Origin: a virus
Length of the DNA: 33,075 nucleotides
Virus record (IMG/VR): IMGVR_UViG_3300029258_005029
Coordinates: 1 to 33,075 of that record
Reading direction: 5' to 3' (one strand)
Of this stretch, positions 1 through 31,095 are shown piece by piece; within the stretch, counting starts at the first letter, position 1, and each line of letters opens with the position of its first letter. Below the pieces are notes generated by a model. That model made no database searches, was not told the origin of the DNA, and saw only the letters and a list, made by a program, of their open reading frames with translations. Position numbers and translations under genes: made by a program.

Positions 1-585
1 AAGGCCGCGGCCGATGCCTTTACGGGCACGGACGCCAAGGTGATTTTTATTCCCACCTCCATGACCGGCGGGACGTGGGACACGGACGGCACCGCGTCGT
101 CTGCGGCTACGAACAATGTGAGCAAGCACCATATTTCCACGATCCGGGACTACATGATCAACGATCTGCACGTGCCGTTTTTCACGGGCGAGCATTTCAT
201 CGGGCTGTTTACCACCAAGGCCTTGCGCGGGCTGCGCAACGACCGCGTGATCGAGTCGTGGAATATGTATCTGCGCAAGGGCGATTTGCTGTACCGCGGG
301 GAAATCGGACAGGTGGAGAGCGTGCGTTTCATTGAAGTCAACCACGAAAGCGCGCTTTCCAATTCCGTGGGCACGGGCAATGTGCTCGGCGAGGCCGTGA
401 TCTTCGGCAACGACGCCGTGGGCAGGATCGAGACCGAGTTTCCGCACCTGCGGGCCCAGCCCAACTATGCGGCCGATTTCGGGCGGCGGCACGCGGTTGC
501 CTGGTACGGGCTGGTCGGGTACGGGGTGAAGTTTCCTACTGCAAACGACCGCGAAGCGCGGATCGTGCGGATCACTTCTCAGTAG
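1..585 (+). CDS. Major capsid protein, C-terminal part (N4-gp56-like), 5' truncated
   Basis: The frame is open from the first base, so the start lies outside the window; 194 residues are visible. The fragment has features I associate with the C-terminal half of N4-gp56-type major capsid proteins: a GEIGQVESVRFIEV strand (capsid proteins of this group have a similar 'G-x-I-G-x-x-x-x-R-F-I-E' segment), a following GNVLGEAVIFGNDAVG segment, and a final GYGVKF...ARIVRI strand. It would form the icosahedral shell. A hairpin and small virion genes follow directly, as is common after capsid genes. The family assignment comes from recalled motif patterns, not a search; another HK97-fold capsid family is possible. 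The role as capsid is more certain than the exact family. Confidence 0.7.
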   Translation, partial: KAAADAFTGTDAKVIFIPTSMTGGTWDTDGTASSAATNNVSKHHISTIRDYMINDLHVPFFTGEHFIGLFTTKALRGLRNDRVIESWNMYLRKGDLLYRGEIGQVESVRFIEVNHESALSNSVGTGNVLGEAVIFGNDAVGRIETEFPHLRAQPNYAADFGRRHAVAWYGLVGYGVKFPTANDREARIVRITSQ

Positions 586-13797: not shown

Positions 13798-16700
13798 ATG
13801 GCGATTAAAAGCATTGCAGAGCTTGACGACTGGGTGACCGGGGAAACGGCACCGGCAGAGCGAACAGCGCAACCGGCCCCGGCCCAACCCCGGGGTTTTT
13901 TTGGAGAAGCCGCCAGTGCCCTGGGGATGGGCATCATTCAGACGGCCAAGAGCATCGGCGGAGCCCTGGAAATGGCCGGGCTGGAAGCCGGCGAACGCAT
14001 GGTGGACTATTACGGGGAGGTGGAGAAGTCGCCGTCGCTCCGGCGGCCCGAGCATTTGCAGCAAGACACCGTGCTGGAGCACCCCGAACGCTTGAAGGAC
14101 TGGCGGTGGTGGGTGCGGATGGCCGGGGAAAACCTGCCCACAATGGCGGCGATGATGCTCCCGGGCGCAACCGCGATGAAGGCGGCCCAGGCCGGGCTCA
14201 AAGGGGTGCAGGCCGGGAAATTTGCGGCCCTGGGGATCCGCGGGGCCCGGGCCGCCAAGATTTTGAGCAAGGGCCGAAAGATCATCAAGGGCGCGGCCAC
14301 GGCCGGGGGCTGGACCGGCGCGGCCACGGTCGAGTCGGGCGCGGCCTATAACGACGCCAAGGAGGAGATGCTCCGGGAGGGGTACGACCCGGACCTGGCC
14401 GAACGGATCGCCACCCTGGAAGGGCTCACGGTGGGGACGGCCAACGCCATGCTGGAGACGGCGCCCTTCCTGGAAGCGCTCTTCGGCGGGGTCGGAAAGA
14501 AGGCCCTTACCCGGATCGTGCGCACGGCCCTTTTCGAGGGCACGACCGAGACGGCCCAGGAGGCGGTCAATATGCTTGTGGCCCAGGCCGGGCACGAGCC
14601 GGATATCACCACGCGGGAAGCCCTGGGCCGGGCCCTGGAGAGCGGCATCGCCGGGTTGATGTTGGGCGGCGGAGCCGGAGCCGTGATCCGGGGGGAAAGG
14701 GATGCGGCCCGAAAAGACGAGGAGGACACGAAGAAAAAGAAGAAAACGGAGCAGGAACAACCGCTCGGAGCCGCCCCCGATCAGGTCGCCGAGACGGTTC
14801 AGGCCGGTCCCCGGGCCCGGGCGGAAGAAGAACGCCGCAAGGTCGAGCACCAAAAGGAAGTCAAGGAAAAGGCTGCCGGGCTTTTGGCCGAGATCGAATC
14901 GGAGGTGCAGCCCGGACCGGTTTATGAGGGTGCAGAGGGCAAAGAAGTGCCTGCGGAGGAAAGACCGGCCCTCACGGCCCCCGCGGAGCGCACAGAGAGA
15001 AGGCCGTCGCTCGCGGAATTTGCAGAGGAAGAGGAAGAGGCGCCGGAGAGCCCCGCCGGGCAAGGGGTTTCGGAGCCGGCTTCGCAGGAGCCACGAGAAT
15101 CGACGATCTCGGATGAAGGCATACCTAAGCCTTCACTTTTTGTGGAGGTGGGCGCCCGGATTAGAAGCGGAAGCGTTGAGGGCGAAATCATCGAGGACCG
15201 GGGCAAGAAATGGGCTGTCCGATCCGACGGCGGGATGACGGTGATCGTGCCCAAGGACGGGCCCATCGAGGTGCTGGGGCCGGCAGAGGAGAAGAAAGAG
15301 CCCGCCGCAGAGCCCAAAGGGGGCTCAGAAAAAAAACCGACGCCGGCAGAGGTTTCCACCGATCAGGAGGAAAAAGAAGAAGAGGCCCCGTTGCCTTCTT
15401 CCATGCCGCCGGGGATGCAGGCGAAGTACCGGGAGATTGTCGGGGAGGCCGAACGCCGGTTGCATGAATTGGAGGTGCAGGGCAAGCCGACGGACACCCG
15501 GGCACCGGCGTATGTGGAAGCGTTAAAGAAAGTAGAGGCCATCCGCGGAACCGTCGACCGGCTCAGGAATCAACAGGAGGCCGTCGACAAGGGGTATAAG
15601 CGCGGGGATCCCAAAAAGCTCCAAGAGACCCTTGAGCGCTTACAAGAAGACCTTGATCGGACGGACCTGGACGACCCCCGGTACAATCCCGTCCCCGAAG
15701 CGGATTTGAAACGGGGCGGAAAGGAAATCAAGGACCCCTGGAACGACCGGAAGATCACCAATTACAAGAAACGGGGGGACTATTATACCGGGATCGTGTG
15801 GAGCTACGAAGACAGGGAGCCCTCTTACTGGTTCGCGAGCCGGGAGGATTACGGGGCCCTGCCTGAATCTGAGAAGGCCGAAGGCAGACCGCGATTGGAC
15901 GGCATCGGGAGCACGGAAGCGCGGGCCGTGGCCCACTTGGAAGAAAACATCCGGAAGGATGCGTCCCGGGACGCCCTGCTCAACCGCACGGACTTTTCCC
16001 GCGAGGAGCTGAAGGGGGTGGGGAACGTCACGCTCCGCCAGATTGCCAAGCATCGGGACATCCCGAACTGGCAAAGGAAGCAGACAAAGACCCTGATCGA
16101 CGAAATCCTGGACGGGCAGCCGCCCCGGTCGGGGGGCGAGGTAATTGAGTCGGCGCCGGGGGAGGAGCAGAAAGGCCCGGGGTTTAAGCCGAGTAAGACG
16201 GTTGAGCCGCCCAAGATCGAGCACCGGGGGGGTGGCAAGAGCCTGACGGGGGGAAAGCCGCTCGCAGAGCCCGCAGAGGGTGCGGAGAAGACGGGCGGGG
16301 AGGCGCAGCCGGAGACCGTCTACGGGAAGGTGTTTAAGGGAATTCCCGTGGACAAGCCTGCGGCTGAGCTGACCGACGAGGAAATGGACCGGATTCTGGA
16401 GCCCGATGGGAACAGCATGAGGCTCCGCAACAAGGAGCTGGGGGAATACGAGGTCGACCCCCGGTTTCACGTGATGGTGAAAAAGGGAGAGCCCGGGTAT
16501 CAACCGTCGTGGAAGGCAGACCGGCAACCCGTGCGGACGGATTTCCGTGCGGTGCGCGAGTACCTGAAAACGGGCAAATTCACCACGCCGTTCGGGGAAC
16601 AGATCGACCGGCTCTCCGGGGTCATGCAGGCCCGGGGGATTGCGGACCCGAAGGAAGCGCTCGGGGCTGCATCCCGGGTGCTCCATACCATCCGGACCGG

Positions 16701-18036
16701 CGACCAATTCCGCGCAAAGGGGTTTTACCCCACCAAGGCCGGCGGAAACACGGTCAAGGTCATGCGGCGCGTGTTCGAGGAAATGACCGGAGAGAAGCTC
16801 CCCCGGACCGTGAAAGGCACCCGGGAGTTTTTTAAAAACCGCGAGGGGTCTTTTTTCGTGGTGAAAGGCGTTGAAGACCTGATCCGGGAGACGGAACCGG
16901 GCAGTAAGGATGTGCCCGCCCCGGAGAGCCCGAAGCCGCAGAAAAAGGCGGAGAAAAAAGCGCCGGAACCGAGCCCGCGGGCGCCGGTGGAGATGGGCCG
17001 CGATGCGCTCCGGGCGTTCGCGGAAGAAGAGGGGCTGAAGGTTTCCACGCAAACGGCGAGTTGGGATGCGCTCTTCACCCGGGTGCGCGATGCCCTGCTC
17101 CGCAAGCAGGGGAAGGAGCCCCGTAAACGGGGGCCGGCCACGGAGGAGATTAAGAGGTTCAAACCCGGGGACCGGGTGGTCTTCGAGGAATTTGAGGGCG
17201 AAAACGAGGGCGGTCGGGCCGAGGCCACCGTCGCCGAGATACCGGAAGAGCACCGAAAGGCGGGCACCCTTCCGGTGATCGACCGGGAAGGGAGCCGCCG
17301 GGTCCTGCCGGCCGACAAGGCCTATCTCGCCATGCCGGAAAAGGAGAAGGGCGTCACCGCAGAGCCCGCAGAGGGCGCGGAGAAGACGGCGCAGCCTGCG
17401 GACAAGATGATCGGGGTGAACAGCGAGGGCCAAAAGATTTATGAGAACGAAAAGGGCCATCGCTATGTGATCGAAAAGGTGGGGGGCAGCGAGTTTAAAA
17501 CTTTTGAGCCGATTCAGTGGCCCCAGGGGACGCCCCGGGATCGCAGGCCAGAGCAGTATACGCCCGTTTCGTCCATGGCGGGGTTGAAGGAGAAGCAGGA
17601 GAAGGCCCCCGGGAAGATCAAGGATGCCTTGAGCGGGAAGGGCAACAAGTTTGAAAAAGCCGCAATTCAAAAGGCAAAAGAAATCGCCGGAGCACTGGAA
17701 CCGGGTAAGGAAGCCTATGTCGGCCCGCAATTCAGCGTGGAGGTGGGCGGAAAAGAAAAACTGGTCGGATCGGAATTTTATTTGAGAAAGGCCGGCCTGG
17801 AACCCGGGAGCGACGCGAATTATTGGAAAAAGCCTGCCGGGCCGACGGCGCCGGCGGACCTGACGGTCAAGCCGCCTGCGCTGGAGGACCTGACGATCAA
17901 GACCCGGGCCATTGTGGAGGAGACCGGGGAGCTGACCAAGGAAGCGGTGAACGAGGAGAACGCGGCGGAGGCGGTTTCCGAGATCGACGAGAAGACCGAG
18001 CGGCTCTATGAGCTGATCGAGTGTATCGAGGTGTAG
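13798..18036 (+). CDS. 1412-residue polyvalent-type protein, probably packaged and ejected
   Basis: I recognise no single family; the architecture resembles phage large polyvalent proteins. Residues 30-300 are mostly small-residue and hydrophobic (ENLPTMAAMMLPGATAM; ESGIAGLMLGGGAGAVI), suggesting membrane contact. Residues 300-440 are charged and disordered. Residues 451-490 form an SH3-like barrel candidate (VGARIRSGSVEGEIIEDRG). Residues 733-775 look like a SAP/Rho-N-like helical motif (TLRQIAKHRDIPNWQRK). Residues 1066-1180 combine another such helical motif with an FKPGDRVVF SH3-like segment, and this pair recurs at the start of the giant gene at 19165. Residues about 1205-1235 (MIGVNSEGQKIYENEKG) resemble a motif common in such proteins. 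No enzyme motif is evident. It probably travels with DNA into the host. Confidence 0.75.
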   Translation: MAIKSIAELDDWVTGETAPAERTAQPAPAQPRGFFGEAASALGMGIIQTAKSIGGALEMAGLEAGERMVDYYGEVEKSPSLRRPEHLQQDTVLEHPERLKDWRWWVRMAGENLPTMAAMMLPGATAMKAAQAGLKGVQAGKFAALGIRGARAAKILSKGRKIIKGAATAGGWTGAATVESGAAYNDAKEEMLREGYDPDLAERIATLEGLTVGTANAMLETAPFLEALFGGVGKKALTRIVRTALFEGTTETAQEAVNMLVAQAGHEPDITTREALGRALESGIAGLMLGGGAGAVIRGERDAARKDEEDTKKKKKTEQEQPLGAAPDQVAETVQAGPRARAEEERRKVEHQKEVKEKAAGLLAEIESEVQPGPVYEGAEGKEVPAEERPALTAPAERTERRPSLAEFAEEEEEAPESPAGQGVSEPASQEPRESTISDEGIPKPSLFVEVGARIRSGSVEGEIIEDRGKKWAVRSDGGMTVIVPKDGPIEVLGPAEEKKEPAAEPKGGSEKKPTPAEVSTDQEEKEEEAPLPSSMPPGMQAKYREIVGEAERRLHELEVQGKPTDTRAPAYVEALKKVEAIRGTVDRLRNQQEAVDKGYKRGDPKKLQETLERLQEDLDRTDLDDPRYNPVPEADLKRGGKEIKDPWNDRKITNYKKRGDYYTGIVWSYEDREPSYWFASREDYGALPESEKAEGRPRLDGIGSTEARAVAHLEENIRKDASRDALLNRTDFSREELKGVGNVTLRQIAKHRDIPNWQRKQTKTLIDEILDGQPPRSGGEVIESAPGEEQKGPGFKPSKTVEPPKIEHRGGGKSLTGGKPLAEPAEGAEKTGGEAQPETVYGKVFKGIPVDKPAAELTDEEMDRILEPDGNSMRLRNKELGEYEVDPRFHVMVKKGEPGYQPSWKADRQPVRTDFRAVREYLKTGKFTTPFGEQIDRLSGVMQARGIADPKEALGAASRVLHTIRTGDQFRAKGFYPTKAGGNTVKVMRRVFEEMTGEKLPRTVKGTREFFKNREGSFFVVKGVEDLIRETEPGSKDVPAPESPKPQKKAEKKAPEPSPRAPVEMGRDALRAFAEEEGLKVSTQTASWDALFTRVRDALLRKQGKEPRKRGPATEEIKRFKPGDRVVFEEFEGENEGGRAEATVAEIPEEHRKAGTLPVIDREGSRRVLPADKAYLAMPEKEKGVTAEPAEGAEKTAQPADKMIGVNSEGQKIYENEKGHRYVIEKVGGSEFKTFEPIQWPQGTPRDRRPEQYTPVSSMAGLKEKQEKAPGKIKDALSGKGNKFEKAAIQKAKEIAGALEPGKEAYVGPQFSVEVGGKEKLVGSEFYLRKAGLEPGSDANYWKKPAGPTAPADLTVKPPALEDLTIKTRAIVEETGELTKEAVNEENAAEAVSEIDEKTERLYELIECIEV
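16264..16294 (+). repeat. 31-base dispersed direct repeat, copy 1
   Basis: It matches 17359-17389 with one mismatch and in the same reading frame. It encodes AEPAEGAEKT in a linker between domains. Confidence 0.9.
17359..17389 (+). repeat. 31-base dispersed direct repeat, copy 2
   Basis: Second copy of the repeat at 16264-16294, again encoding the AEPAEGAEKT linker. It lies just after the SAP/SH3-like module of the same protein. Confidence 0.9.
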
Positions 18037-19164: not shown

Positions 19165-22100
19165 ATGGCGAGTTTGGCGTATTGTCTGGATTTAAAGGCA
19201 CACCGGGATGCGTTTTCCGACGCGGAGAAGAAACGACTCATGCGCCTTGCGAAAAAGTACGGGAGCGACAAGGAAGCCGTGCTCGCCTATATCAACGAGC
19301 TGGCCGAGGAAAAAGAGCGGATTTACACCCAAGCGGAGGAGAAAGGGTGGGCGCGGCCGGCGGTCGAGAAGAAGGGGGAAAAGCCCCCCGAGACACAAGG
19401 GCCGGAGCAAGAGAAAAAGACGTTTCGGAACCTGTCCCACATGGAACGGGATGAACTGAAGCAATTCGCACGGGACAACGATTTAAAAATCAAACGAGCG
19501 AATCAATTAGGCTGGTTCGATCTTTTAAGAGAGGTGCAAGGGGCATACAACAAAAAACAGGGCTTAACCGTTGTCGATGTTATCGAGAGCCCCGGGATCG
19601 CCGTCCGCAATTTTAAACCGGGCGACCCGGTGGCATGGGAAGGCGGGAACGGAAAAGAGGAAGGCGAACGGATGTTCGGGTATGTCGCGGAGATCAAGGA
19701 CGAGAACCGCCGAACCGGCAATCTGACCATATCCGAAAAGAAAGGCGGAAACGGCAGTTGGCTGGTTCCCGCCAATAAGATGGTTAAAGTTCCGGAAACC
19801 TTGACAAAAGAAGAAAAAAAGCCGAAAATAAGCGAGGAGGAAACAAAAGATGACGAGCGTAAGCCTGAAACAACTAAAACGGATCAAGCCGGAGCAGATC
19901 GACCTGGATCACCCGGAGAGGGAGCCGGATTTCAAGAACCACCTGCGCCACCTGTTACAGAATTATCCGCAGGTGACCGGGGACCTGGCGTGGAACCGGC
20001 CCAAGGAACTGAAGGCGAGGCTGGAACGGGTGACCAAGCGGGCGATCTTACAAAGGATCATTCTGAAAAAGGAGGGACGACTCGCCCCGGATCAGATCGA
20101 GGAGGCCGTGCGGGAGATCGTGGCACCGCACGACAGCCCGGTGGACCTGGGGGAGGAACCGGAACCGCTTCCGGAGGAGGACGAACTGAGGATTCTGGCG
20201 TGGGCGGACAACCCGGACGGCCCCCCGCCGATACCCTCGCAGAAGAAGACCGGGACCACAGAATCGAAGCAAGCGACGTTCTCTTCCCTGCCGGGCCTGA
20301 AACCAAAATCCAAACCAATATCAAAGCCGTCCGACTTTACAAAAAGCTCGTAGCCGAAGACCGAAATCCCACCCCCGAAGAAAAAAAGAAACTGGCCCAG
20401 TATGTGGGATGGGGCCAGTTTGCGCAAAAAGTCTTCAATCTCAAACCCTATAAAGCCTACCTGGACGCCGTGGCCCGGGACCCGGAAGTCAAGCGGAAAC
20501 CCGAGGATTTCCTTTACGGCACGGACCTGACGAAATACCTGGACTGGGAGAAACGATACGGCCGGCACCTCCACCCGGACCTGGGCGGGGTCTTGACCCC
20601 GGAGGAGTGGGACTCGGCCGAGCGGAGCACGCTGAACGCCCATTACACCTCAAAGGATGCGATCACGGCCATGTGGCAGGCCGTGGAGCATCTCGGGTTC
20701 GAGCAGGGGGTGATTGTGGAGCCGTCGGCCGGGGTGGGGCATTTCTTCGGGCTCATGCCGGAGAAGATTCACAAGAAAAGCGTTTTGATGGGGATCGAAC
20801 TGGACGAAATTACAGGCGGGATTCTTCAAAAGCTCTATCCCCAGGCGGATATTCAAGTCACCGGGTTCGAGAAGGCCCTGGGGGTGCCGGACAACTCGGT
20901 CGACCTGGTGATCAGCAATTTCCCTTTTGGAAACTACTCGGTTTACGACAAAAAGCATAAAGATTATACGGGCTGGTCCATTCACAATTATTTTTTCGCC
21001 CGGGCCATCGACGCGGTGCGCCCGGGGGGGCTCGTCATGGGGATCACCTCGCACTGGACCCTGGACAGTAAGACGGGCGGGCCCATGCGGGAATATTGGG
21101 CCCGGAAAGCGGACCTGGTGGGCGCGGTGCGCCTGCCCAATAACGCTTTCAGCAAGGATGCGGGCACGGAGGTGACCACCGACATCCTGGTTTTCCGCAA
21201 GAAGGACGGGACCGGTCACGGCCTGGGCCGGAACTTCCGGGTGGTGCGGGAGGTGGCGGCCGGGGACAAAACCGCGGAGGTGAACGAGTATTTTGCGGAC
21301 CATCCGGAGATGGTCCTGGGCCGGCACAGCCTCAAGGGGAAGATGCACGGCCGGCAGGCCGCGGAGGAGGAGTACACCGTCGAGCCCGTTTTCGGCCGGG
21401 ACGCGCTTCAGGAAAACCTGGCCAAGGCGTTCACGGCGCTTCCCTCGAACATCTACGGGGAAGGACAAGGAAAGGATGCGGCCGAGCGGGTCCGGGCCGA
21501 AGAGGGACAGACCGACGGGAGCCTGGTCGAGTCCGACGACGGCAAGATTTACATGGTGGAAGAGGGGCTTTTGAAAGAGCCCATGATGTTCGACAGCAAG
21601 GGCAATTATGTCAAGGCCATCAACACCAAGGCCCGGGAGCGCCGGGTCCGGGATTACCTGGCCCTCAAGGCCGCGGCGAAAAAGCAGATCGACCGGGAGC
21701 TTTCCGAGGATGCCACGGACGAGGAGATTGAAACGCTCCGGGCCGAACTCAACCGCCGCTATGATCGGTTCTACAAGAACAACAAAGCCTTAAACAGTGT
21801 CGCCAACGGATTTTTGCGGAAGATCGATATCGAGTTTCCCATTATGGACGCCCTGGAGACCGAGGCCCGGGAGAACATCAGCTTCAAGGTGCCCAAGGGG
21901 CAGAAAAACGCCGGCGAGCAACGGTTTAAATTCAAGTACACCTACACGAAGGGGCCGATCCTCCAAAAGCGGGCCCTTTATCCCTTCCGGGAACCGGAGC
22001 GGGCCGAGACCGTCGAGGACGCCATCGCTCTTTCCCGGGTCTACCGGGGCGGGGTATCGACCCGATACCTGGGGAAACTCCTGGGGCGGGATCCGGAGGA

Positions 22101-25100
22101 GGTGCGACAGGAGATCCTGGAGCGGGAACTCGTGTACCTGGACCCTGAAACGGGTGTGCTGGAGGCCCCGGACCGTTACCTATCCGGTCATGTGCGGAAG
22201 AAGCTGGACATCGCCCGGGACCGGGCCAAGGAGGACAAAACCTTCGAGGCCAATGTGAAGGCCCTGGAAAAAGTCCAGCCCGAGCCCCTGGATATCGCGT
22301 TTATCGAGTTCCGCCTCGGCACCGCCTGGATGCCCCCGGAGGCGGTGCAGGACTTCCTACGGGATGTGATCGGGGTCGAGGCGGAGGTCGTCAATGTGCG
22401 GACCCAGGAGGAGACCCACTGGGCCGTTCGCGTAAGCGACGGCGAGCGGTCGGCCCGGAACGTGGAGACCTGGGGGGTCTCCTGGGAGCGCATAAACGGG
22501 GGCACGGGCGTCCGCACCGGAACCGATCTGGTGGAGAGGGCCCTCAACCTGCGCCGGCCGGAGATCCGCGACCCCCGGTACAACGACAAAGGCGACCCTT
22601 CGGGGAGCGTGCTCAACGCCAAAGCCACCCTACAGGCCCGGAACAAGACGGACGAGCTTCAGTTCGAGTTTTTGCAGTACATCCGGAAACACGATACCTG
22701 GGGGCAAAAGTGCGCGGATATCTATAACGACATCGCCCGGGGGTGGCGCCGGCGGGAGACGCCCACGCCGGATATCGAGCGGTTTCCCGGGGCCAGCCGG
22801 GCGGTCAAGCTCCGGGACCTTCAGAAGCGCGGGGTCGCCCGCGCGCTCCAGGACAGCACCCTTTTGGCCTACGGGGTGGGCACGGGCAAGACCTTCACCT
22901 TTATTTCGCTCGCCATGGAGATGCGCCGGATCGGCACGGCCCGAAAGCCCATGATTGTGGTGGACGGGGCCACGGTGGACCAGTATGCCCGGGATTTCAA
23001 GGCCCTCTATCCCCAGGCCAAGGTGCTCGTGCCCGGGGACAAGATGCGCACGGGCAAGAACCGCACCCGGCTCCTGGCGCAGATCGCTATGGGGGACTGG
23101 GACGCGGTGGTGATCCCGGACAGTTTTTTCGACCGGATCCCCAACGACCCGGCCCGGGCGCAGGCTTTCATCGAGGAGAGCCTGGCAGGGCTCCGGGCCG
23201 CACTTTCCAAGGCCCGATCCAACGCCCCCGGCAATTCGGAGCGGGAGATAGAGCGGGACCCCACGGTGAAGCAGCTCCGCCGGCAGTTGGAAAACAAGGA
23301 GGCCAAGCTCGAAAAGCTCCTGGACAGGGAGACGGACCCGGCCATGCCTTTCGAGAAGATGGGGGTGGATGCGCTCCTGGTGGACGAGGCCCACCGCTAC
23401 AAGCGGGGGGAGTTCTACACGCAGATGGGGAACATCAAGGGGATCGACCACGGAGCGAGCCAGCGGAGCGCCGGGCTCCTCATGAAGGCCCGGTATGTGC
23501 AGGAAAAGACGGGGGGGAAGAACGTGGTCCTCGCCACGGGAACGCCCATCTCGAACACCACGGCGGAACTCTGGACCCTGCTCCGCTACATCCGGCCCCA
23601 GCTTCTCAAAGAGTTTCATTGCGAGCTGTTCGACGATTTTGCGGCCATGTTCGGGGAGAGCCAGGTCCAGACCGAGCAGACCGCGGACGGCACGTTCAAG
23701 CAGGTGGAGCGGTTCAATAAGTATAAGAACGGGACGGACCTGCTCACCATGTTTTTCGAGGCCACGGACGTGGCCCTCACCCAGTGGGCCGACCTGAACC
23801 TGCCGGAGATGGAAGGCGGGCAGGTTCAGTCGGTCGTGGTGGAGCGGAGCGAGGCTATGGCCGGGTTCATCGAGGAGCTCAAGAGCGCCATGGAGTGGTA
23901 CGAGTCGCTGGCGGGGCCGGGTAAGCTGGATTACGGCTACATCCCCGTCTCGGTTTACACCCTGGCGCGGCAGGGGGCCGTGGACCTGCGGCTCGTGGAC
24001 CCGGAACGCTACGGGGACGACCCGGGGAGCAAGGTGAATGTCATGCTCCGGAAGGTTCACGAGATTTGGAAGGAGACGGCCAAGGACCGGAGCACCCAGG
24101 CGATATTCTGCGACCTCCACCACGATCCGTCCAAGACCTTCGATCTTTACAAGGACATGAAGGAGAAGCTCGTCAAGATGGGGATCCCGGAAGAGGAGAT
24201 CATCATCTACCGGGACGCCGATTCGGACGCAAAGCGGGACGCGGTGAAGGACCTTCTGCGCCTGGGGGATGCGCGGGTGGTGATCGGGTCGAGCACCAAG
24301 CTCGGGGTGGGGGTCAACATTCAGGATAAGCTCATTGCGGCCCATCACGTGGACCCGCCTCAGCTCCCCAAGGACATCGAACAGCGCAACGGCCGGATCG
24401 TGCGGGAGAAAAACGAAAACCCGGTGGTCCGGGTCTACGCCTACGGGGTCAAGGACACGCTCGACAGCGTGCTCTACGACCGGCTGTTGAAGAAGCAGTT
24501 TTTTATCGATCAGATTTTATCCGGGGACATCGAGGGCCGCACGTTCGAGGAGCCGTCGAGCGAAAGCCTTATGTCTTTTGCGGAGATGCAGGCGGCTTTT
24601 GCGGGCAACCCGCTTTTGTATGAGAAAAACGAGATCGACGCCCGGGTGCGCGAGCTCCGGATTATGGAGCAGCAGCACCAGGTCCGGGTGAGCAAGGCCC
24701 GCCAGGAAGCCAGGTGGCTCAAGGAGAAGGTGATCCCCGGATATGAGAAGGACCTGGTCAAAGCCCGGTCCCGGGCGAAACGGTTTGCGAAGTTGTTTCC
24801 CGAATCGAAATACGCAGAGGCGACCTATGAAGGGAAGGTGCTCGACCGGAAGGACTTTATCGAGGCGTTGACCGAGGCCCGGGTTGCAATGGGCAAGGCC
24901 CTGGCGAAGAAGTTTAAGGGCATGACCGTTGTAGACTTCCATCACGAGGATGCAATGGGCCGCAACCGGGAGATGTTCGCCGAGGCGGAGATCGGCGGGC
25001 TGACGGTCAAGTTCGATATCGAGGTGCACATCTCGGACTGGAACTTGCGATATTACGATAACAAGAAAACAGCCAAACACAAGCTCAAGCTGGAGGAGCT

Positions 25101-28100
25101 GGAGACCACGCTTAGTTACAGCGTGCACGACGGCGGAAAGTTCGTGTGGGGCCGGGAGATCGGGACGCCGGACGGGTTTACCACGAGCTTTCAGGCCCAG
25201 CTTAAAAACGTGCAGGCTTTGCCCGGGGACATCGAGAAGACCCTGGCGGTAAAGAAAAAGGACCTGGCCGAGCACGAGCAGAACATCAATCAACCCTTTG
25301 CCGCCGCGGACGAGCTTAGGGAGAAGCGGCAGCGGAAGGACGAGATCGACCGGGAGCTGGAGGAGACGAGCGCCCAAGCCCGGGAAGAAGAGCGCGGGGA
25401 CCAGGCCGCGCCGGCAGGGCCGGCCCCGGACAGTCCCCTCGGGCGGATCATGGACCGGGCCGCGTACCGCCGTAGCTTGAAAGACCAAGGGTTGAGCGAC
25501 GCCGCGATAAGACGGTGCATGAAAAATTATGTGCCCGGCCGGGCATGGGCCGCGGCCCCGGCTGCGGAAGAAGAGCCCTGGCGCCGGGACCCGTCGAGCG
25601 TTTACTGGACCAGTTTGAGGGATGGGTGGAAGCCGATCCCGGACGCGGCCCGGGTGGAGACGATCCCCGGGGTCGAAACCTTTGCCTACAAAGACGAAAT
25701 TACCGGGAAGTGGTCCGTGGTGGAGGCCCGGACCGGGTTGGCCGTGGGCGGGGGACAAGACACCCGGAAGGATGCGATCCGGGCGTTTATGGAAGGCGTC
25801 GGCCGGGCCGGCGGGCCCGAAGTCCTCGAAGAGACCATAAAAACACACCTGGCCGATAACGAGGAGAGCCCGTATATCACCGGGGAGTTGCCGGAGAACC
25901 TCTATGAAAAGACCAGCTTGCGCCCGGCTCCGGAAGCCCGGGAAACATACCGGCCGAACAAGGCCCAGCTTAAAAACGCCCGGGACCTGGCAAAGCTCGT
26001 CCCAAAGTGGCTGGAGGAGGCCGGGGCCCATCCCTCGGTGATCGAGCGGATCCGGGTGGAGTTTAAGCCCTTCATCGATTTGACGGGCAAGAATATCGAC
26101 CGGACCGTGGAAGAGTGGCGGAAAGACGGCCGAAGCGTGGAAACGATCCTGGGGGCGACCACGGTCCGGGAGTTGGAGGCCGTGATGGAGCTGGCCCTGC
26201 ATGTGCCGTCGCTCCGGGATTTGGAGAAAACCGTGCTGCACGAATATTTCCACGTGGCGGCCCGGTGGGTCCTGCCCGGGGAAGCCTATCAAAAACTCAT
26301 CCGCCATTACGGCACGGAAGAACGGACCGCCGATGCGTTCGCCGATTTTATTAAGGGCCGGAAACGAACGTTTATCCCGGGCACGACATCGTGGGTGCGG
26401 CGGCAGTGGTTGAGAATCAAAAGGTTTTTAACCCGCCTCCGCAACTGGCTGGACGGCAAAGGGTTTGCGCGGCCCCAGGATTTTTTCGGGCCGTTGAGCG
26501 TGGGAGCCTACCGGCCGCATTTCGCAAGCGGGACGACGGCTCAGCAAACCTTTCCGCAAATGAAGTTCCGGGGGGAGCCCGGCCGGCCCAAGCCGTTTTA
26601 TTCCCACCTTGTCCGCACCCTCGAACAGGCTCCGCCCGATATGCCCCGAAAGGCGCAGAGCCTTAAGAAGTGGCTGGAGCGCCGGCAGGTAAAGCCCGAT
26701 GAACTCAAGTGGATGGACATCGACGGGTGGATCGAGACGAACCAAGACAAGGAGGGAAAGATCGACCGTAAGGCCCTGCTTGAGTATGTGCGGGCCCATG
26801 AGATCCGGGTCGAAGAGGTGGTGAAGGACGTCGACGCGCGGGAATTTCCGGACTGGGAAGAGGTGGAGTCTCAGAAAGCCGCGTTGAGTGTAATGGGGAT
26901 CGCCGCCGAGGTCTATGAAAGTGAAGACGGGTATGTCGTCAGCTTGTACGACCGGAAGTCCTCCAAACACATCCCCCCCGAGGAATTGGACGGTGTCGCC
27001 CTGGAAGCCTACGACCGGTTGATTAATGCCGTTTTCGGGGTCGAAGGCTCGGAAGAAGGCGGCGGGTTAGCCCTCTACGGCCCTTCGACCGGCTACGATG
27101 TGAATGTGCCGGGCGGGGAGGAATACCGGGAGATTTTGTTTCGGTGGGATCCGCCCATGCCCGGGTTTGTCCCGGAACCCACGGATCGGCTGCCCCCGAA
27201 CCACACCATGGAAACGGTGCAGGAGAATGAATGGACGGGACAGCGGGATGTGGTGATTCTGGACGCGGACGGCCGGTTTGTTACGGAGCGGACCGGCACC
27301 AGAGCCACGGACGAGGAGATCGTCCGGCGCTTCATGGAAGCCCGCAATGAAGACGCCCGGATGATGGCCCGGCGGAAGGCCTCCTACCAATCGACACATT
27401 GGGAGGAGAAAAACGTACTGCTCCACGCCCGGGTGGACGAGCGCCGGGACAGCAGCGGGCGGAAAATCGGGTTTATTCAGGAAATACAGAGCGATTGGCT
27501 CCAGGACGCGGCCAAGGGGAAGGCCGTACCCGATGCGCCGTTTAAGGACACCTGGCACGAGTTCGCCTTAAAGCGGTTGATCCGGTGGGCCGCGGAAGAG
27601 GGGTTCGACATGCTGGCCTGGACCACGGGCCGGCAGCAGATCGAGCGCTATAACTTGCGCAAGCACATCGATGAGATCGAGTGGGTGAAACAGGACAGGC
27701 CCAAATTCCACGACCTGCCGAAAAAAGGCCGGGACTATTACACGATCCACGCCAAGAAGGACGGCGGATCGGTGTTATCCCGGGCCGATTTGAAGCCCGA
27801 GGACCTGGCCGGCGCGGTGGGCGAAGGGATGGCTAAAAAAATCGTGGCGGCCTCGCGGAACAAGGATTCCGGGACCCTCAGCGGGCTTGACCTTCAGATC
27901 GGCGGCAAGGGTATGGAGGTGTTCTACGACGAAAAACTCCCCGGGTTCGCCCGCAAGTATGTGAAGAAGTGGGGGGCCAAGGTGGAGCGGATCGAGGTGG
28001 AGACCGGATACGCGCAACGGCCGGTCTATGAAGGGCCCACGTTCAGCCTCGAAGCGTTCCGGCGAATGATCGCCGAGAAACGGTTTAAGGACTCGCTGGG

Positions 28101-31095
28101 CTGGGTAGCCGACGGGGTCGAGATATACATGAGCGCTCACTATGCTACATTCAAGGATGCAATAGCGGCGATGGGAACCACCTGGCTTGCAGAGGCGCTC
28201 GGGGGAAAAATGATCTATCCCCAGCTCACCGAGCCCGTCCACGCCGTTCCCGTCACCGAGGCCATGCGGGAGAGCGTGCTCTTCGAGGGGCAGACCTATT
28301 TCAAGCTGGCCGAACCCGAAAGCGGGCCGGAGACGGCCCGGGACCTGGAGGAAAACCGCACATTTGTGAACAAGCTCTTCGAGACCGGGGACCTGGGCAG
28401 GCACCGGATCAGCACGGCCGCGGCCAAGTTGCAGGAAGAGGTGCAGCGCCTGGCGGGCAAAGCGAGCCGGCGGAAGTTCACCCTGGGGTTCGCCTACAAT
28501 AAAGAGCTTAAGCGGAGCCGGGCCTCCGACGAGTTGGACCAGGCTATGATGATCTACCGGGATGTGCAGGCGGCCCCGGAGAAGATCGACGAGTTCCGGG
28601 CTTGGGCCAATGGGGCGCTCGCGGACGAAAAAACCAAGGCCGAGACCAAGCTCGAAATCAAGGGCATGTTGAAAATCCTGGACCGTGTCGAAACCCTCAC
28701 GGACGAGCAGAAAGCCTTTGCCATGGACCGCATGGGGGACGCTTTCGAGGGCATGTATGATGTTGCATCCCGGGCCGGCCTGGTCAAGTCCCACCGGGAT
28801 TTTTATGTGCGGAGGCTTTGGCGCCTGCCGGAAGGCAAGGAGGGGGATTTTTTCAGCTCGGGCACGGGGCACGGGTTTAAGACTTTCACCACGGCCAAAC
28901 TGGAGCGCAAATTCGACACCATCCTGGACGGTTTTATGGCCGGGTATCGCCTGCGGGTCTCGGGGCTTACCAACTCGTGGAAGGAGTATGCTTCCGAGAT
29001 CGCCACGATCCTCTCCAACAAGGCCTTTATCAGCCGCGGGGTCAAGACCAAGGACATCAACGGCAACGCCCTTTTCAGCACGAAAAAACTCTCCGGCTAC
29101 GCTCCGCTCAAGGCCAAGGGGTTCGAGGTGTGGCGTTGGGCCGGAGAGGCGTCGGCCGAGGTGCACCTGGAGGAAAAAGAAGCGCTCGTGATCGATACCT
29201 ACGGGAGAAAGTTTTTCGCCACGCCGCCCGAGCGGGTGCCGGCTAGATTCATCGTGTCTCCGCCCGAAGGGAAGAAGGGCCGGGTCCCCCGGGGGTTTTT
29301 CACCCGGGAAGAGGCGGAGGCGTTCGCCGAAGAGCAAGGCTGGACGGACATCAAGGAAGAGCCGCCCGTGGATGTGAGCACGCTCTTTGAAAAGCAGCGA
29401 CTCTATGCGCCCGCGGACCTGGCCGAACAGATCAACAAAGTGACGGCTACGGACCGCTGGTTTTGGCAGACCCCGGGGGCCCGGGCGCTCCTGCGCCTGA
29501 ACGCGGGGCTTAAAAGCTATATCCTGATGAGCAGCTTCTTTCACCACCTGGCCGGAAGCCGGTCGTGGATATTCGGGGTGCACCACGGGTGGAAGGGGGT
29601 GAGCCCGATCAAGGCCTATAAGGACGGGCTGCGGAAAATCCACGACCTGCACCCGCTGATCGACCTGGGGGTGAAAAACGGTCTCACCCTGGGGGACGTG
29701 CAGGACTGGAGCGAGTGGCAGCTCCGGGAGGAGAAAGGGTTGACCGAAAGCCTGGTCAAGAAACTGGGGATGGAAAGGGCCGCGGCCTTGATCGAGAAGG
29801 GCAAGTTCAAGCGTGAGGGGTTCGCGGACAGTCTCTTTAAAAAGTTTTTTGCGGGGCTCAAGGCGGAGGCGTTTTGCGTTGAGTACGCCCATGAGCTGCA
29901 AAAAGCCCGGGAAAAATTCAATGCAGGCCGGGGCCCGGCCCCCAACGAAGGCTTGATCGCCGAGCAGACGGCCCGGCTCATCAACGCGGACTTCGGCGGC
30001 TTGCACACAAAGCGCATGGGACGGAACCCCACCCTTCAAAAAACGGCCCGGCTGCTTCTCCTGGCCCCGGACTGGACGGAGAGTAACTTCCGCACCGTGA
30101 CCGGGATGATCCCCGGGCTCAACAAGAAGATCGGGAACCTGATCGGGGATGTGCCCCCGCCTAAAGGCATGGAGGAAATCTACCGCAAGTTCTGGACCCG
30201 GGTCATGCTCCGGATCGCCGTCGGTACGATCATCGCCCAACTGCTTATGAGCAATAAGGACGAGCGGGAGGAGTTTTATGAGGAGCAGATGCGCTCCAAC
30301 CGATGGAACAAGTTCCGGTGGACCGAGATCGAGGTGACAAAGCTCTATCACATGCTGGGGATCGACACGGAAGGAACAAAGAAAACCTTCTCCCTGGGCG
30401 GGCATTTTTTCGACCCGCTCAAGCTGCTCGATCCTTGGCGGTTGGTCAAGGGCAAAGGGAGCCCGCTGACCCGGGCCCTGGGGGCCCTGGGCGGCACGGA
30501 CTGGGCCGACCGGCCATTTACCGGGGTCAGGGAGTTGGCCGAGACCGGGAAGACCGTGAAAAAAAGCCCGTATATGCCGAAAGAACAGTTCTACAACCGA
30601 CTGCCGAGCGTGGTGGTGAACCAGGTCGTGAATATGCAGCCCATTCAGGTGGGGCATTTTATTAAGCTGTTGCAGGGAGAAGAGGATGCGCTTACGGCGC
30701 TTATGCACAGCGCCGGGGCCGCGACTCATACGGCATGGCCCCCGAGGATTACGACGCCCATCGTGAAACGGAAATCCGGCCCGGACCCGGTCTATGAAGA
30801 AATTGAGGCGATGATGAAGGCCGGCGTGCTGGCGATGGGGCCGCCCTCGCGGTATACGCAAATGGCCGGGGTGAGTTATAAGATGAGCCGGGAGCAATAC
30901 GAGGAGTATCTGTCCCGGTCGTCGGCTGCGGCCCGCCGGAAACTGGCTCCGCTGGTGACAAGCCGTAGGTGGGAACAATGGGATGATGCTAAAAAACGGC
31001 GGATCGTCGAAGGAACGCTCCGAAACGCCCGCAAGCGGGCCCGGGGCCGGATCAGACGGCAGATCGTTCGTGAGGCCCGAAGGGAGGCGTCCTGA
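19165..31095 (+). CDS. 3976-codon giant polyvalent protein: SAP/SH3-like, DNA methyltransferase, SF2 helicase, zincin and other modules (DarB-like)
   Basis: One uninterrupted frame. Order: residues 93-210 helical SAP-like plus SH3-like module; 229-375 low-complexity linker over a nested gene; 376-680 methyltransferase; 1210-1760 helicase; 1815-2070 coiled coil; about 2110-2200 a small domain (FAYKDEITGKWSVVEARTG); 2340-2400 zincin; 2478-3050 a module with EIQSDW; 3050-3976 a long helical C-terminus with a hydrophobic helix near 3680-3696 (RVMLRIAVGTIIAQLLM). The methyltransferase-helicase pair resembles P1 DarB, a virion protein that protects ejected DNA from type I restriction, and related proteins of mobile elements. 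I infer it is packaged and ejected. The Shine-Dalgarno is weak. The frame may be a fusion: see the nested gene at 19850 and the A7 run at 19814. Confidence 0.85.
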   Translation: MASLAYCLDLKAHRDAFSDAEKKRLMRLAKKYGSDKEAVLAYINELAEEKERIYTQAEEKGWARPAVEKKGEKPPETQGPEQEKKTFRNLSHMERDELKQFARDNDLKIKRANQLGWFDLLREVQGAYNKKQGLTVVDVIESPGIAVRNFKPGDPVAWEGGNGKEEGERMFGYVAEIKDENRRTGNLTISEKKGGNGSWLVPANKMVKVPETLTKEEKKPKISEEETKDDERKPETTKTDQAGADRPGSPGEGAGFQEPPAPPVTELSAGDRGPGVEPAQGTEGEAGTGDQAGDLTKDHSEKGGTTRPGSDRGGRAGDRGTARQPGGPGGGTGTASGGGRTEDSGVGGQPGRPPADTLAEEDRDHRIEASDVLFPAGPETKIQTNIKAVRLYKKLVAEDRNPTPEEKKKLAQYVGWGQFAQKVFNLKPYKAYLDAVARDPEVKRKPEDFLYGTDLTKYLDWEKRYGRHLHPDLGGVLTPEEWDSAERSTLNAHYTSKDAITAMWQAVEHLGFEQGVIVEPSAGVGHFFGLMPEKIHKKSVLMGIELDEITGGILQKLYPQADIQVTGFEKALGVPDNSVDLVISNFPFGNYSVYDKKHKDYTGWSIHNYFFARAIDAVRPGGLVMGITSHWTLDSKTGGPMREYWARKADLVGAVRLPNNAFSKDAGTEVTTDILVFRKKDGTGHGLGRNFRVVREVAAGDKTAEVNEYFADHPEMVLGRHSLKGKMHGRQAAEEEYTVEPVFGRDALQENLAKAFTALPSNIYGEGQGKDAAERVRAEEGQTDGSLVESDDGKIYMVEEGLLKEPMMFDSKGNYVKAINTKARERRVRDYLALKAAAKKQIDRELSEDATDEEIETLRAELNRRYDRFYKNNKALNSVANGFLRKIDIEFPIMDALETEARENISFKVPKGQKNAGEQRFKFKYTYTKGPILQKRALYPFREPERAETVEDAIALSRVYRGGVSTRYLGKLLGRDPEEVRQEILERELVYLDPETGVLEAPDRYLSGHVRKKLDIARDRAKEDKTFEANVKALEKVQPEPLDIAFIEFRLGTAWMPPEAVQDFLRDVIGVEAEVVNVRTQEETHWAVRVSDGERSARNVETWGVSWERINGGTGVRTGTDLVERALNLRRPEIRDPRYNDKGDPSGSVLNAKATLQARNKTDELQFEFLQYIRKHDTWGQKCADIYNDIARGWRRRETPTPDIERFPGASRAVKLRDLQKRGVARALQDSTLLAYGVGTGKTFTFISLAMEMRRIGTARKPMIVVDGATVDQYARDFKALYPQAKVLVPGDKMRTGKNRTRLLAQIAMGDWDAVVIPDSFFDRIPNDPARAQAFIEESLAGLRAALSKARSNAPGNSEREIERDPTVKQLRRQLENKEAKLEKLLDRETDPAMPFEKMGVDALLVDEAHRYKRGEFYTQMGNIKGIDHGASQRSAGLLMKARYVQEKTGGKNVVLATGTPISNTTAELWTLLRYIRPQLLKEFHCELFDDFAAMFGESQVQTEQTADGTFKQVERFNKYKNGTDLLTMFFEATDVALTQWADLNLPEMEGGQVQSVVVERSEAMAGFIEELKSAMEWYESLAGPGKLDYGYIPVSVYTLARQGAVDLRLVDPERYGDDPGSKVNVMLRKVHEIWKETAKDRSTQAIFCDLHHDPSKTFDLYKDMKEKLVKMGIPEEEIIIYRDADSDAKRDAVKDLLRLGDARVVIGSSTKLGVGVNIQDKLIAAHHVDPPQLPKDIEQRNGRIVREKNENPVVRVYAYGVKDTLDSVLYDRLLKKQFFIDQILSGDIEGRTFEEPSSESLMSFAEMQAAFAGNPLLYEKNEIDARVRELRIMEQQHQVRVSKARQEARWLKEKVIPGYEKDLVKARSRAKRFAKLFPESKYAEATYEGKVLDRKDFIEALTEARVAMGKALAKKFKGMTVVDFHHEDAMGRNREMFAEAEIGGLTVKFDIEVHISDWNLRYYDNKKTAKHKLKLEELETTLSYSVHDGGKFVWGREIGTPDGFTTSFQAQLKNVQALPGDIEKTLAVKKKDLAEHEQNINQPFAAADELREKRQRKDEIDRELEETSAQAREEERGDQAAPAGPAPDSPLGRIMDRAAYRRSLKDQGLSDAAIRRCMKNYVPGRAWAAAPAAEEEPWRRDPSSVYWTSLRDGWKPIPDAARVETIPGVETFAYKDEITGKWSVVEARTGLAVGGGQDTRKDAIRAFMEGVGRAGGPEVLEETIKTHLADNEESPYITGELPENLYEKTSLRPAPEARETYRPNKAQLKNARDLAKLVPKWLEEAGAHPSVIERIRVEFKPFIDLTGKNIDRTVEEWRKDGRSVETILGATTVRELEAVMELALHVPSLRDLEKTVLHEYFHVAARWVLPGEAYQKLIRHYGTEERTADAFADFIKGRKRTFIPGTTSWVRRQWLRIKRFLTRLRNWLDGKGFARPQDFFGPLSVGAYRPHFASGTTAQQTFPQMKFRGEPGRPKPFYSHLVRTLEQAPPDMPRKAQSLKKWLERRQVKPDELKWMDIDGWIETNQDKEGKIDRKALLEYVRAHEIRVEEVVKDVDAREFPDWEEVESQKAALSVMGIAAEVYESEDGYVVSLYDRKSSKHIPPEELDGVALEAYDRLINAVFGVEGSEEGGGLALYGPSTGYDVNVPGGEEYREILFRWDPPMPGFVPEPTDRLPPNHTMETVQENEWTGQRDVVILDADGRFVTERTGTRATDEEIVRRFMEARNEDARMMARRKASYQSTHWEEKNVLLHARVDERRDSSGRKIGFIQEIQSDWLQDAAKGKAVPDAPFKDTWHEFALKRLIRWAAEEGFDMLAWTTGRQQIERYNLRKHIDEIEWVKQDRPKFHDLPKKGRDYYTIHAKKDGGSVLSRADLKPEDLAGAVGEGMAKKIVAASRNKDSGTLSGLDLQIGGKGMEVFYDEKLPGFARKYVKKWGAKVERIEVETGYAQRPVYEGPTFSLEAFRRMIAEKRFKDSLGWVADGVEIYMSAHYATFKDAIAAMGTTWLAEALGGKMIYPQLTEPVHAVPVTEAMRESVLFEGQTYFKLAEPESGPETARDLEENRTFVNKLFETGDLGRHRISTAAAKLQEEVQRLAGKASRRKFTLGFAYNKELKRSRASDELDQAMMIYRDVQAAPEKIDEFRAWANGALADEKTKAETKLEIKGMLKILDRVETLTDEQKAFAMDRMGDAFEGMYDVASRAGLVKSHRDFYVRRLWRLPEGKEGDFFSSGTGHGFKTFTTAKLERKFDTILDGFMAGYRLRVSGLTNSWKEYASEIATILSNKAFISRGVKTKDINGNALFSTKKLSGYAPLKAKGFEVWRWAGEASAEVHLEEKEALVIDTYGRKFFATPPERVPARFIVSPPEGKKGRVPRGFFTREEAEAFAEEQGWTDIKEEPPVDVSTLFEKQRLYAPADLAEQINKVTATDRWFWQTPGARALLRLNAGLKSYILMSSFFHHLAGSRSWIFGVHHGWKGVSPIKAYKDGLRKIHDLHPLIDLGVKNGLTLGDVQDWSEWQLREEKGLTESLVKKLGMERAAALIEKGKFKREGFADSLFKKFFAGLKAEAFCVEYAHELQKAREKFNAGRGPAPNEGLIAEQTARLINADFGGLHTKRMGRNPTLQKTARLLLLAPDWTESNFRTVTGMIPGLNKKIGNLIGDVPPPKGMEEIYRKFWTRVMLRIAVGTIIAQLLMSNKDEREEFYEEQMRSNRWNKFRWTEIEVTKLYHMLGIDTEGTKKTFSLGGHFFDPLKLLDPWRLVKGKGSPLTRALGALGGTDWADRPFTGVRELAETGKTVKKSPYMPKEQFYNRLPSVVVNQVVNMQPIQVGHFIKLLQGEEDALTALMHSAGAATHTAWPPRITTPIVKRKSGPDPVYEEIEAMMKAGVLAMGPPSRYTQMAGVSYKMSREQYEEYLSRSSAAARRKLAPLVTSRRWEQWDDAKKRRIVEGTLRNARKRARGRIRRQIVREARREAS
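19814..19821 (+). promoter_or_regulatory. A7 run with slippery heptamer A-AAA-AAG in the giant frame
   Basis: In the 19165 frame the codons read GAA-AAA-AAG, so A-AAA-AAG (19815-19821) is in the register used by -1 frameshift sites such as dnaX. A -1 shift would end at TGA 19851-19853, giving about 229 residues and overlapping the ATG of the nested gene as ATGA. Loss of one A would instead end at TAA 19829-19831. I see no clear upstream stimulatory Shine-Dalgarno or downstream stem. A second in-frame copy of the heptamer occurs at 20382-20388, so the motif alone is not proof. Confidence 0.4.
19850..20353 (+). CDS. Nested gene in the +1 frame inside the giant frame
   Basis: A 167-residue protein of unknown family. 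Evidence that it is real: AGGAGG at 19835-19840 lies 9 bases before the ATG; an in-frame TAA at 19829 closes the frame upstream; and its first 60 codons have G or C at the third position in about 48 cases (my hand count), against about 19 of 60 for the giant frame over the same bases. The product is a well-mixed helical sequence (LKQLKRIKPEQIDL; RPKELKARLERVTKRAIL; APDQIEEAVREIV), basic first and acidic later (GEEPEPLPEEDELRI). The last 45 residues look less natural, where the methyltransferase frame takes over. It may be an accessory to the methyltransferase-helicase; that is inferred from position alone. Confidence 0.65.
   Translation: MTSVSLKQLKRIKPEQIDLDHPEREPDFKNHLRHLLQNYPQVTGDLAWNRPKELKARLERVTKRAILQRIILKKEGRLAPDQIEEAVREIVAPHDSPVDLGEEPEPLPEEDELRILAWADNPDGPPPIPSQKKTGTTESKQATFSSLPGLKPKSKPISKPSDFTKSS
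20284..21210 (+). other. Methyltransferase domain of the giant protein
   Basis: A conserved lead-in (NIKAVRLYKKLVAEDRNPTP, then YVGWGQF at residue 413) precedes motif I EPSAGVGHFFG (519-529), which binds S-adenosylmethionine, and catalytic motif IV N585-F-P-F588. The following sequence SIHNYFFARAIDAVRPGG and LPNNAFSKDAGTEVTTDILVF matches adenine-specific DNA methyltransferases fused to helicases in mobile elements. The second motif IV residue is Phe rather than the usual Pro. Confidence 0.85.
22800..24520 (+). other. SNF2/SF2-type helicase domain of the giant protein
   Basis: Walker A GVGTGKT at residues 1237-1243, DEAH at 1407-1410, motif III-like ATGTP at 1457-1461, and motif VI QRNGRIVR at 1740-1747, preceded by STKLGVGVNIQ. 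All key residues for ATP binding and hydrolysis are present, so it is probably an active ATP-driven translocase on DNA. Confidence 0.9.
26180..26380 (+). other. Zincin metallopeptidase motif of the giant protein
   Basis: H2359-E-Y-F-H2363 inside VLHEYFHVAARWVL supplies two zinc ligands and the catalytic Glu. About 23 residues later, E2386-R-T-A-D2390-A-F gives the third-ligand pattern 'E-x-x-A-D' seen in gluzincin-like phage polyvalent proteins. It might cut host defence proteins or mature the giant protein itself. Confidence 0.7.
26590..28310 (+). other. Conserved polyvalent-protein module with EIQSDW motif
   Basis: Residues 2478-3050. FYSHL, ELKWMDIDGWI, GGEEYREILF, STHWEEKNVLLHARVD, E2773-I-Q-S-D-W2778, PDAPFKDTWHEFALKRLIRW, W2819-TTGRQQIERYNLRK and IGGKGMEVFYDEKLPG form a series I have seen repeatedly in large phage polyvalent proteins. 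I know of no demonstrated activity. The strictly polar motifs (H, E, Q, D, R) suggest an enzyme. Confidence 0.7.

Follow-up and report, generated by a model that had tools for sequence, protein, structure and literature searches.

Giant phage proteins bundle activities of the first moments of infection, and many of their parts are unnamed. Such polyvalent proteins were described by Iyer et al. (2017), who proposed that their methylase and SNF2 modules modify the incoming DNA and that their zincins release parts of the polypeptide, and who also mention two RimI-like GNAT families in these proteins (PMC5512222). In phage P1, approximately 40 copies of DarB are present in the virion, to which the protein is targeted by an N-terminal signal (PMC9024508), and the Dar proteins are reported to leave the virion with the DNA (PMC12810830). 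P1 DarB itself has no defined mechanism, and darB carried on a plasmid gave antirestriction independently of the protein (PMC11109961). A 2074-aa version of DarB is found in Thermus phages (PMC11437467), mass spectrometry of virions identified 51 unique peptides of the 4515-aa gp69 of JC1, a Bcep22-like relative (PMC9144972), and the 4877-aa gp21 of Atu_ph08 has been described as a DarB homologue (PMC6630229).

The DNA analysed here (the window) is a virus sequence of 33,075 bases. We hold with moderate confidence that it encodes a polyvalent, probably virion-carried giant protein of the DarB type, which would act by the mechanism proposed below and carries an exchangeable payload slot. The genes that bear on this reading are as follows.

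1..585, + strand: C-terminal part of the major head protein (68% identity to an ORF of locus L228; phrog_1357)
3968..4903, + strand: SU10-type adaptor-like protein (Pfam SU10_adaptor above the cut-off)
13798..18036, + strand: upstream 1412-aa protein (blastp of residues 3-282 to the N-terminus of the giant proteins of relatives)
19165..31095, + strand: giant DarB-type polyvalent protein, 3976 aa (open frame; phrog_10089, E=0)

The giant ORF lies in a late-gene context, with the end of the head protein, the SU10-type adaptor, and a tail-like ORF with a LamG domain upstream. The adaptor protein is common to six of the eight close-relative records, suggesting that they belong to a single broad lineage of phages. 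The 322-aa protein of L228, to which the first ORF was compared, matches phrog_1357 ('major head protein'), and a tblastn search with the head protein retrieved 34 phage records, 28 of which are Vibrio phages (approximately 30% identity among the matches listed). The N4-like capsid proposed in the initial annotation found no support here, as no search linked phrog_1357 to N4. The 380-aa ORF at 2805-3947 had no PHROG or PDB match and only weak Pfam matches below the cut-off. The 1522-aa tail-like protein (5656-10224) contains Laminin_G_3, a lectin-like domain, at residues 714-844 and matches baseplate wedge PHROGs, and the 228-aa protein at 10748-11434, which is possibly a membrane-active ejection protein, shows a weak glycine-zipper match below the cut-off near its C-terminus.

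The N-terminal regions of the giant proteins of L069, L076, L071, and L113 match residues 3-282 of the upstream 1412-aa protein with 47, 44, 43, and 37% identity, respectively, indicating that the usual N-terminal end is encoded by a separate gene in the window. A segment is also repeated between the two genes (residues 65-205 versus 1045-1174, 33%). The 1412-aa protein contains Gly/Ala-rich hydrophobic stretches and has a segment of ~140 residues in common with the DarB N-terminus. A relation to the N4-type vRNAP was considered for this protein and judged unsupported, the PHROG search having given one weak match (E 7e-4) and tblastn none in the phages collection.

In the giant protein, the following features belong to the DarB-type half.

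20299..20454, + strand: LPD36-like region, residues ~379-430, with GWGQ (alignment A5, motif counts; name after PMC5512222)
20602..21264, + strand: adenine-methyltransferase-like domain, residues ~480-700 (motif; TaqI methylase match by profile)
20917-20928, + strand: methylase motif NFPF, residues 585-588 (motif search)
22642..24867, + strand: SNF2-type ATPase/helicase, residues ~1160-1901 (Pfam SNF2-rel_dom above the cut-off; motif counts)
+ strand: SNF2 motifs GTGKT at residue 1239, DEAH at 1407, and QRNGR at 1740 (motif search)

The ORF is real and intact: 3976 codons are open without interruption at exactly 19165-31095 (+). The PHROG profile search placed phrog_10089 ('DarB-like antirestriction') on residues 196-2122 (1309 bits), SNF2-rel_dom exceeded the Pfam cut-off, and a profile of six relatives of the core retrieved SNF2/ISWI ATPases and the TaqI methylase from the PDB. 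LPD36, gamma-class methyltransferase, and SNF2 ATPase, the DarB order, is also the order here, both in the full-length core alignment (A5) and in the phrog_10089 match. The DarB-type half is matched by 112 records of the phages collection, every one with <60% identity, and 48 of them cover at least 80% of the query; many of the matches listed are annotated as DarB-like antirestriction. Megablast of positions 1-25000 of the window against the same collection gave no match. Relatives of the core in viral_contigs were found with an alignment as the query. No confirmed relative came from scans of viral_contigs with one protein at a time, whether the query was the second half, the DarB core, or the C-terminus, probably because the query peptides were too specific.

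Motifs were counted in 74 distinct core segments obtained from the best 80 of 341 viral loci. In the methylase motif, N, P, and F are each present in 74/74 segments, the middle residue being V, P, or F in 34, 34, and 6 of them (NVPF, NPPF, and NFPF); the NPP(Y/F) motif of DarB is present in the window as NFPF. The Walker A lysine (74/74), the DE of DExH (73/73), and the last arginine of motif VI (73/73) are retained throughout. The LPD36 motif of DarB is GXGU, where U is G, A, or S (PMC5512222), and the GWGQ of the window keeps GxG but has Q as the fourth residue, at which the relatives have G in 46, A in 14, and S in 8 of 73 segments. Judged by sequence, the region of residues ~379-1901 is an LPD36-methyltransferase-SNF2 core of the DarB type that retains its catalytic motifs. 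The claim of a DarB-like giant protein is thereby borne out by the single ORF, the phrog_10089 match, and the intact methyltransferase and helicase motifs; inactive catalytic motifs across relatives, named beforehand as grounds for giving the claim up, were looked for and did not occur.

The far end of the protein is also shared with relatives.

28285..31092, + strand: conserved C-terminal region, residues 3041-3976 (52-61% identity in four distinct relatives)
30190-30246, + strand: hydrophobic segment of the C-terminus, residues 3676-3694 (hydropathy)

Four distinct relatives contain both the core and the C-terminus, namely L069, L071, L072, and L080 (L073 yields the same matches as L072 and was counted once). 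Identity to the window is 50.8, 48.6, 48.2, and 55.9%, respectively, over core residues 379-1901 and 60.6, 53.4, 53.4, and 52.5% over residues 3041-3976, the equal C-terminal identity counts of L071 and L072 having been rechecked. The C-terminus is thus better conserved than the core in three of the four relatives and less conserved in L080; overall, it is conserved about as well as the enzymatic core. In L076, only the last ~115 residues are in common with the window, and no C-terminal match was found in L068, L070, L074, L075, L077, or L078. We infer that the C-terminus is a virion-loading or translocation part because it is conserved at the level of the enzyme core, although the capsid targeting of P1 DarB is by the N-terminus, not the C-terminus (PMC9024508). 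No catalytic signature was recognisable in the region, and tblastn found no match to it in the phages collection. The membrane-prone segment noticed in the initial annotation is present as a single segment, and its hydrophobicity appears to be conserved but only borderline, with a Kyte-Doolittle mean of 1.39 (1.28-1.72 across the window and the four relatives). The C-terminus was also compared with LPD38, and this candidate was rejected, the profile comparison being at chance level (hhalign probability about 1% or less); the window was negative for both the LPD38 and the LPD23 Pfam models.

Between the core and the C-terminus, the relatives carry 411 (L069), 216 (L071), 220 (L072), and 718 aa (L080), compared with ~950 aa in the window, and this slot appears to be an exchangeable payload site. 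The N-terminal parts also differ: L069 has an inorganic pyrophosphatase domain, and L071 has one that resembles 2'-5' RNA ligases. The case separates constant parts, i.e. the DNA-modifying core and the C-terminus, from an exchangeable slot, the first occupant of which in the window is the following.

25972..26454, + strand: zincin-like metallopeptidase region, residues ~2270-2430 (limits approximate; HEYFH at 2359, downstream YGTEERTADAFAD; phmmer)

At the level of motifs, HEXXH and a downstream Glu are both present (HEYFH...YGTEERTAD), and phmmer matched the region to L017 (1.1e-5), whereas the Pfam search of the 3976-aa protein gave no metallopeptidase model among its matches at E up to 1. 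Only L017 and L045 were found to have the window's type of zincin (HExxH...YG..E..AD); both belong to the window's EIQSDW clade (support 0.845), and in both the zincin is C-terminal to the EIQSDW module. An HExxH motif is present in the slot of each of L069, L071, L072, and L080, suggesting that a zincin-like part is usual in proteins with this C-terminus and that its type varies. The claim that the protein 'adds a metallopeptidase' therefore stands as to the presence of the region and not as to its being an addition. Instead of processing the giant protein itself, the zincin might serve as an effector and cleave host proteins: its type differs among close relatives, as would be expected of effectors, and Iyer et al. 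keep the option open (PMC5512222). However, HExxH occupies the same slot in all four relatives that share the C-terminus, as would suit a processing function that stays constant, and P1 DdrB is processed before packaging (PMC5512222), so that we regard cleavage of host proteins as somewhat unlikely and take self-processing as the simpler reading.

The second occupant of the slot is the EIQSDW module.

26524..28323, + strand: EIQSDW module, GNAT-like predicted fold, residues 2454-3053 (profile match; models, fold comparison)
27481-27495, + strand: EIQSD motif, residue 2773 (motif search)

The module proposed in the initial annotation is, by homology, a true domain of about 600 aa and not a chance string. 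A 207-residue core of it from the window retrieved 57 viral contigs, from which an iterated profile gave the ~600-aa module, and a search of genome contigs found 114, of which the best 80 were used. After removal of near-identical loci (L021, L024-L027, and L044), the set comprised 136 ORFs: the window, 55 from viral/phage loci (near-duplicates removed), and 80 from genome contigs, the titles of which name many phyla (e.g. Salinisphaera hydrothermalis, Hoeflea poritis, and Draconibacterium mangrovi). Complete frames numbered 52 in the genome contigs, with a length of 1500 aa or more in 37 and of <1000 aa in 10. No Pfam model covered any of the 42 modules scanned, with no match to an LPD or to another named domain; three low-count matches to unrelated families among these members were rejected. 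No sequence relative was found in the PDB, nor was the string 'EIQSDW' found in the open-licence literature. An endolysin was also rejected as an identity for the module, as phrog_7348, a profile of 2564 positions, matches only ~60 residues of the window's copy, and the endolysin label probably derives from another part of that profile.

The partners of the module vary. LPD38 was found in 10 and ART-PolyVal in 7 of 44 C-terminal parts of these ORFs scanned with Pfam, and 30 N-terminal parts (13 further ones were left out of the scan) contained InPase in 5, ART-PolyVal in 4, ddrB-ParB in 2, and Acb1, PBECR3, PBECR5, and GGDEF in 1 each. A search of 34 records for LPD38 found it in 6. In L230 (Pseudomonas aeruginosa plasmid p382), a frame of ~5000 aa, with an integrase nearby, contains both LPD23 and EIQSDW, and LPD23 is situated away from the module. 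L003 (Dolichospermum phage Dfl-JY45) encodes two tandem modules in one ORF and a third in the neighbouring ORF, with a DarB core on a separate gene upstream, and in L016, L019, L020, and L038 a standalone EIQSDW gene of ~760-790 aa is followed by a gene of ~455-460 aa, forming a repeated pair. Pelagibacter phage HTVC028P gp34 (L004, 3105-5969) is a standalone EIQSDW gene of 954 aa. The genes for 'putative internal protein A' and 'putative internal virion protein' bound the block in which it lies, the tail fibre comes next, and this position suggests that EIQSDW can occur as a virion protein in its own right.

A DarB core is present in 6/136 EIQSDW ORFs (some frames are cut by contig ends), and reverse sampling found the module in one of the best 80 of 341 DarB loci (L117, the same contig as L041). 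In the EIQSDW tree (52 rows, with no more than 10 of the 80 genome loci, chosen by hand), the members with a DarB core are scattered, as expected of shuffled parts. The module and the C-terminus might nevertheless be ancestral, the close DarB relatives having lost the module rather than the window having gained it; in the EIQSDW giants L029, L043, and L065, the module and a distantly related form of this C-terminus follow each other as they do in the window. The tree, however, places the window with L150, then with L017, L045, and others, and not with L029, L043, and L065, and the module is missing from all seven close DarB-relative records searched, which makes an ancestral module doubtful in comparison with its insertion into an exchangeable slot.

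The structure of the module was modelled with AlphaFold2 from alignment A2 (42 rows), which omitted the modules of L010, L052, L055, L057, and L066 because of coverage or length, as well as those of L042, L054, L056, L061, L062, and L067 and of L003, L004, and L009. The model of the window's module had a pLDDT of 78.5 and a pTM of 0.68, and that of the compact 402-aa member of L065 had values of 85.4 and 0.80. Foldseek matches to the PDB were not significant (best E 0.016 for the window and 0.029 for L065), with GNATs prominent near the top. With VIA-align, GNAT-domain chains filled all of the best 50 rows for both models, with Z values from 10.7 (3.0 A, 144 residues) to 8.0 for the window and from 9.6 (3.1 A, 133 residues) to 7.9 for L065. 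The predicted structures of two divergent members thus both resemble GNAT acetyltransferases. From the DSSP string of the L065 model, we assign strand 192-200, which contains EELQSD, to beta4, helix 266-280 to alpha3, strand 285-289 to beta5, and helix 303-328 to alpha4, followed by two strands; this predicted order of elements fits that of GNATs. In the predicted structures, the beta4-like strand bears the invariant Glu of EIQSD, and the alpha4-like helix bears the invariant Tyr of FYD. A Glu on beta4 and a Tyr on alpha4 occupy the places of the general base and the general acid in several GNATs.

K44, E47, R181, E198, Q200, S201, P261, F262, W266, G291, Y313, D314, K326, and G329 are present in all 42 members. 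Because E198, Q200, S201, D202, and the next few residues belong to the search pattern, conservation in held-out genome sequences (76 of 80 genome loci aligned) was assessed at the other positions only: E47 (74/74), R181 (76/76), P261 (76/76), W266 (76/76), and Y313 (73/73) are invariant, and D314, K44, and G329 are present in 65/73, 59/74, and 56/71 sequences, respectively. At the sequence level, this conservation is enzyme-like. No acetyltransferase match was obtained for any of the 42 modules with Pfam at E up to 0.01, which speaks against identity with the RimI-like GNAT families of Iyer et al. The CoA loop of GNATs has the pattern Q/R-x-x-G-x-G/A; at the corresponding places, the modules have R in 35/42 and G in 40/42, the last position is mostly not G/A, and the loop of the window is shortened.

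We tentatively propose that EIQSDW is an undescribed, widespread family of GNAT-fold acyltransferases carried into the cell inside giant proteins with exchangeable payloads. Alternatively, a protein of ejection or packaging might use the module's GNAT-like scaffold for structure or binding, without enzymatic activity; the lack of a sequence match to any acetyltransferase family, the weak CoA-loop pattern, the Foldseek scores, and the position of the pelagiphage copy among internal virion protein genes all speak for this. In contrast, the invariant E47, R181, E198, Q200, S201, and Y313 (in the 42 members and, at the independent positions, in the held-out set) look catalytic, and a patchy, exchangeable distribution fits an effector better than a structural part; a non-enzymatic module is rather unlikely. 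That the acyltransferase acts on DNA like phage Mu Mom, as a second layer of modification beside the methyltransferase, is improbable, since fusion to the methyltransferase-SNF2 core and the modification of adenine in phages by Mom-family GNATs (PMC7824862) would fit such a role, but 130 of the 136 ORFs (some cut by contig ends), including standalone genes, are without a DarB core. For the proposed acyltransferase, a protein target in the host has a precedent in Rac, a GNAT of phiKMV-like phages that acetylates host RNA polymerase (PMC7824862); nothing on ejected phage acetyltransferases was found in the open-licence literature. If the proposal is true, EIQSDW acyltransferases would be the counterpart, with a host target, of the ADP-ribosyltransferases found in the same proteins. 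For a module present both in phage contigs and in assemblies of genomes from many bacterial phyla, the proposal provides a structural hypothesis that names candidate catalytic residues, and the enzymology of the module is directly testable with a single purified domain.

Domains of unlike activity, i.e. the methyltransferase-SNF2 core, the HExxH region, and the EIQSDW module, are thus combined in one ORF. In the mechanism that we propose, the giant protein would be packaged into the head and be ejected along with the DNA, with loading or translocation by the C-terminus together with the N-terminal part that is here encoded by the upstream gene. The core would travel along the incoming DNA and methylate it, so that restriction would be blunted; the zincin would cut the polypeptide into working pieces; and the EIQSDW domain would acylate a host macromolecule, most likely a protein. 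The role of 'protecting DNA' is suggested by family membership only, and since the effect of plasmid-borne darB was independent of the protein, this step rests on P1 genetics and not on biochemistry. The virion-delivered, multi-activity protein envisaged in the initial annotation fits the polyvalent concept, given the intact motifs, the late-gene context, and a relative detected in virions. Its capacity to 'disable host proteins' gains some support from the GNAT-like models of EIQSDW, but self-processing is the simpler role for the zincin. Assistance with entry found no backing, as the protein contains no peptidoglycan-degrading Pfam domain and its hydrophobic segment is borderline; this claim and the N4-like one should be dropped.

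Among the described systems, P1 DarB shares the methyltransferase and SNF2 architecture of the window (PMC5512222), and in P1 the protein is a virion-carried antirestriction factor. It is shorter, at ~2255 aa (PMC11109961) versus 3976 aa, and works with DarA, Hdf, DdrA, DdrB, and Ulx, whereas no such partners were identified in the window fragment. The giant proteins of Bcep22-like and PBC5-like phages (BcepIL02 gp70, JC1 gp69, and Atu_ph08 gp21) have the same LPD36-methyltransferase-SNF2 core, 30-34% identical to that of the window, exceed 4000 aa, and occupy a late-gene position as in the window. They differ in that EIQSDW was not found in L005, L007, or L008, and a lytic transglycosylase is reported at the N-terminus of the Bcep22 protein (PMC6630229), none being seen with Pfam in the window protein. 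With the GNAT acetyltransferases AtaT, NatD, and the C-terminal domain of ICL2, EIQSDW shares the predicted fold and the predicted order of strands and helices, but it differs in having no detectable sequence similarity, long insertions, and an atypical loop after beta4. The polyvalent proteins of Iyer et al. (2017) resemble the window protein in combining several unlike domains, including zincin and methyltransferase-SNF2, in a late-gene context (PMC5512222), but EIQSDW matches none of those LPDs that are modelled in Pfam, nor any other Pfam model. The window protein is a polyvalent protein, which is a described kind, and the EIQSDW module is the part of it that looks new.
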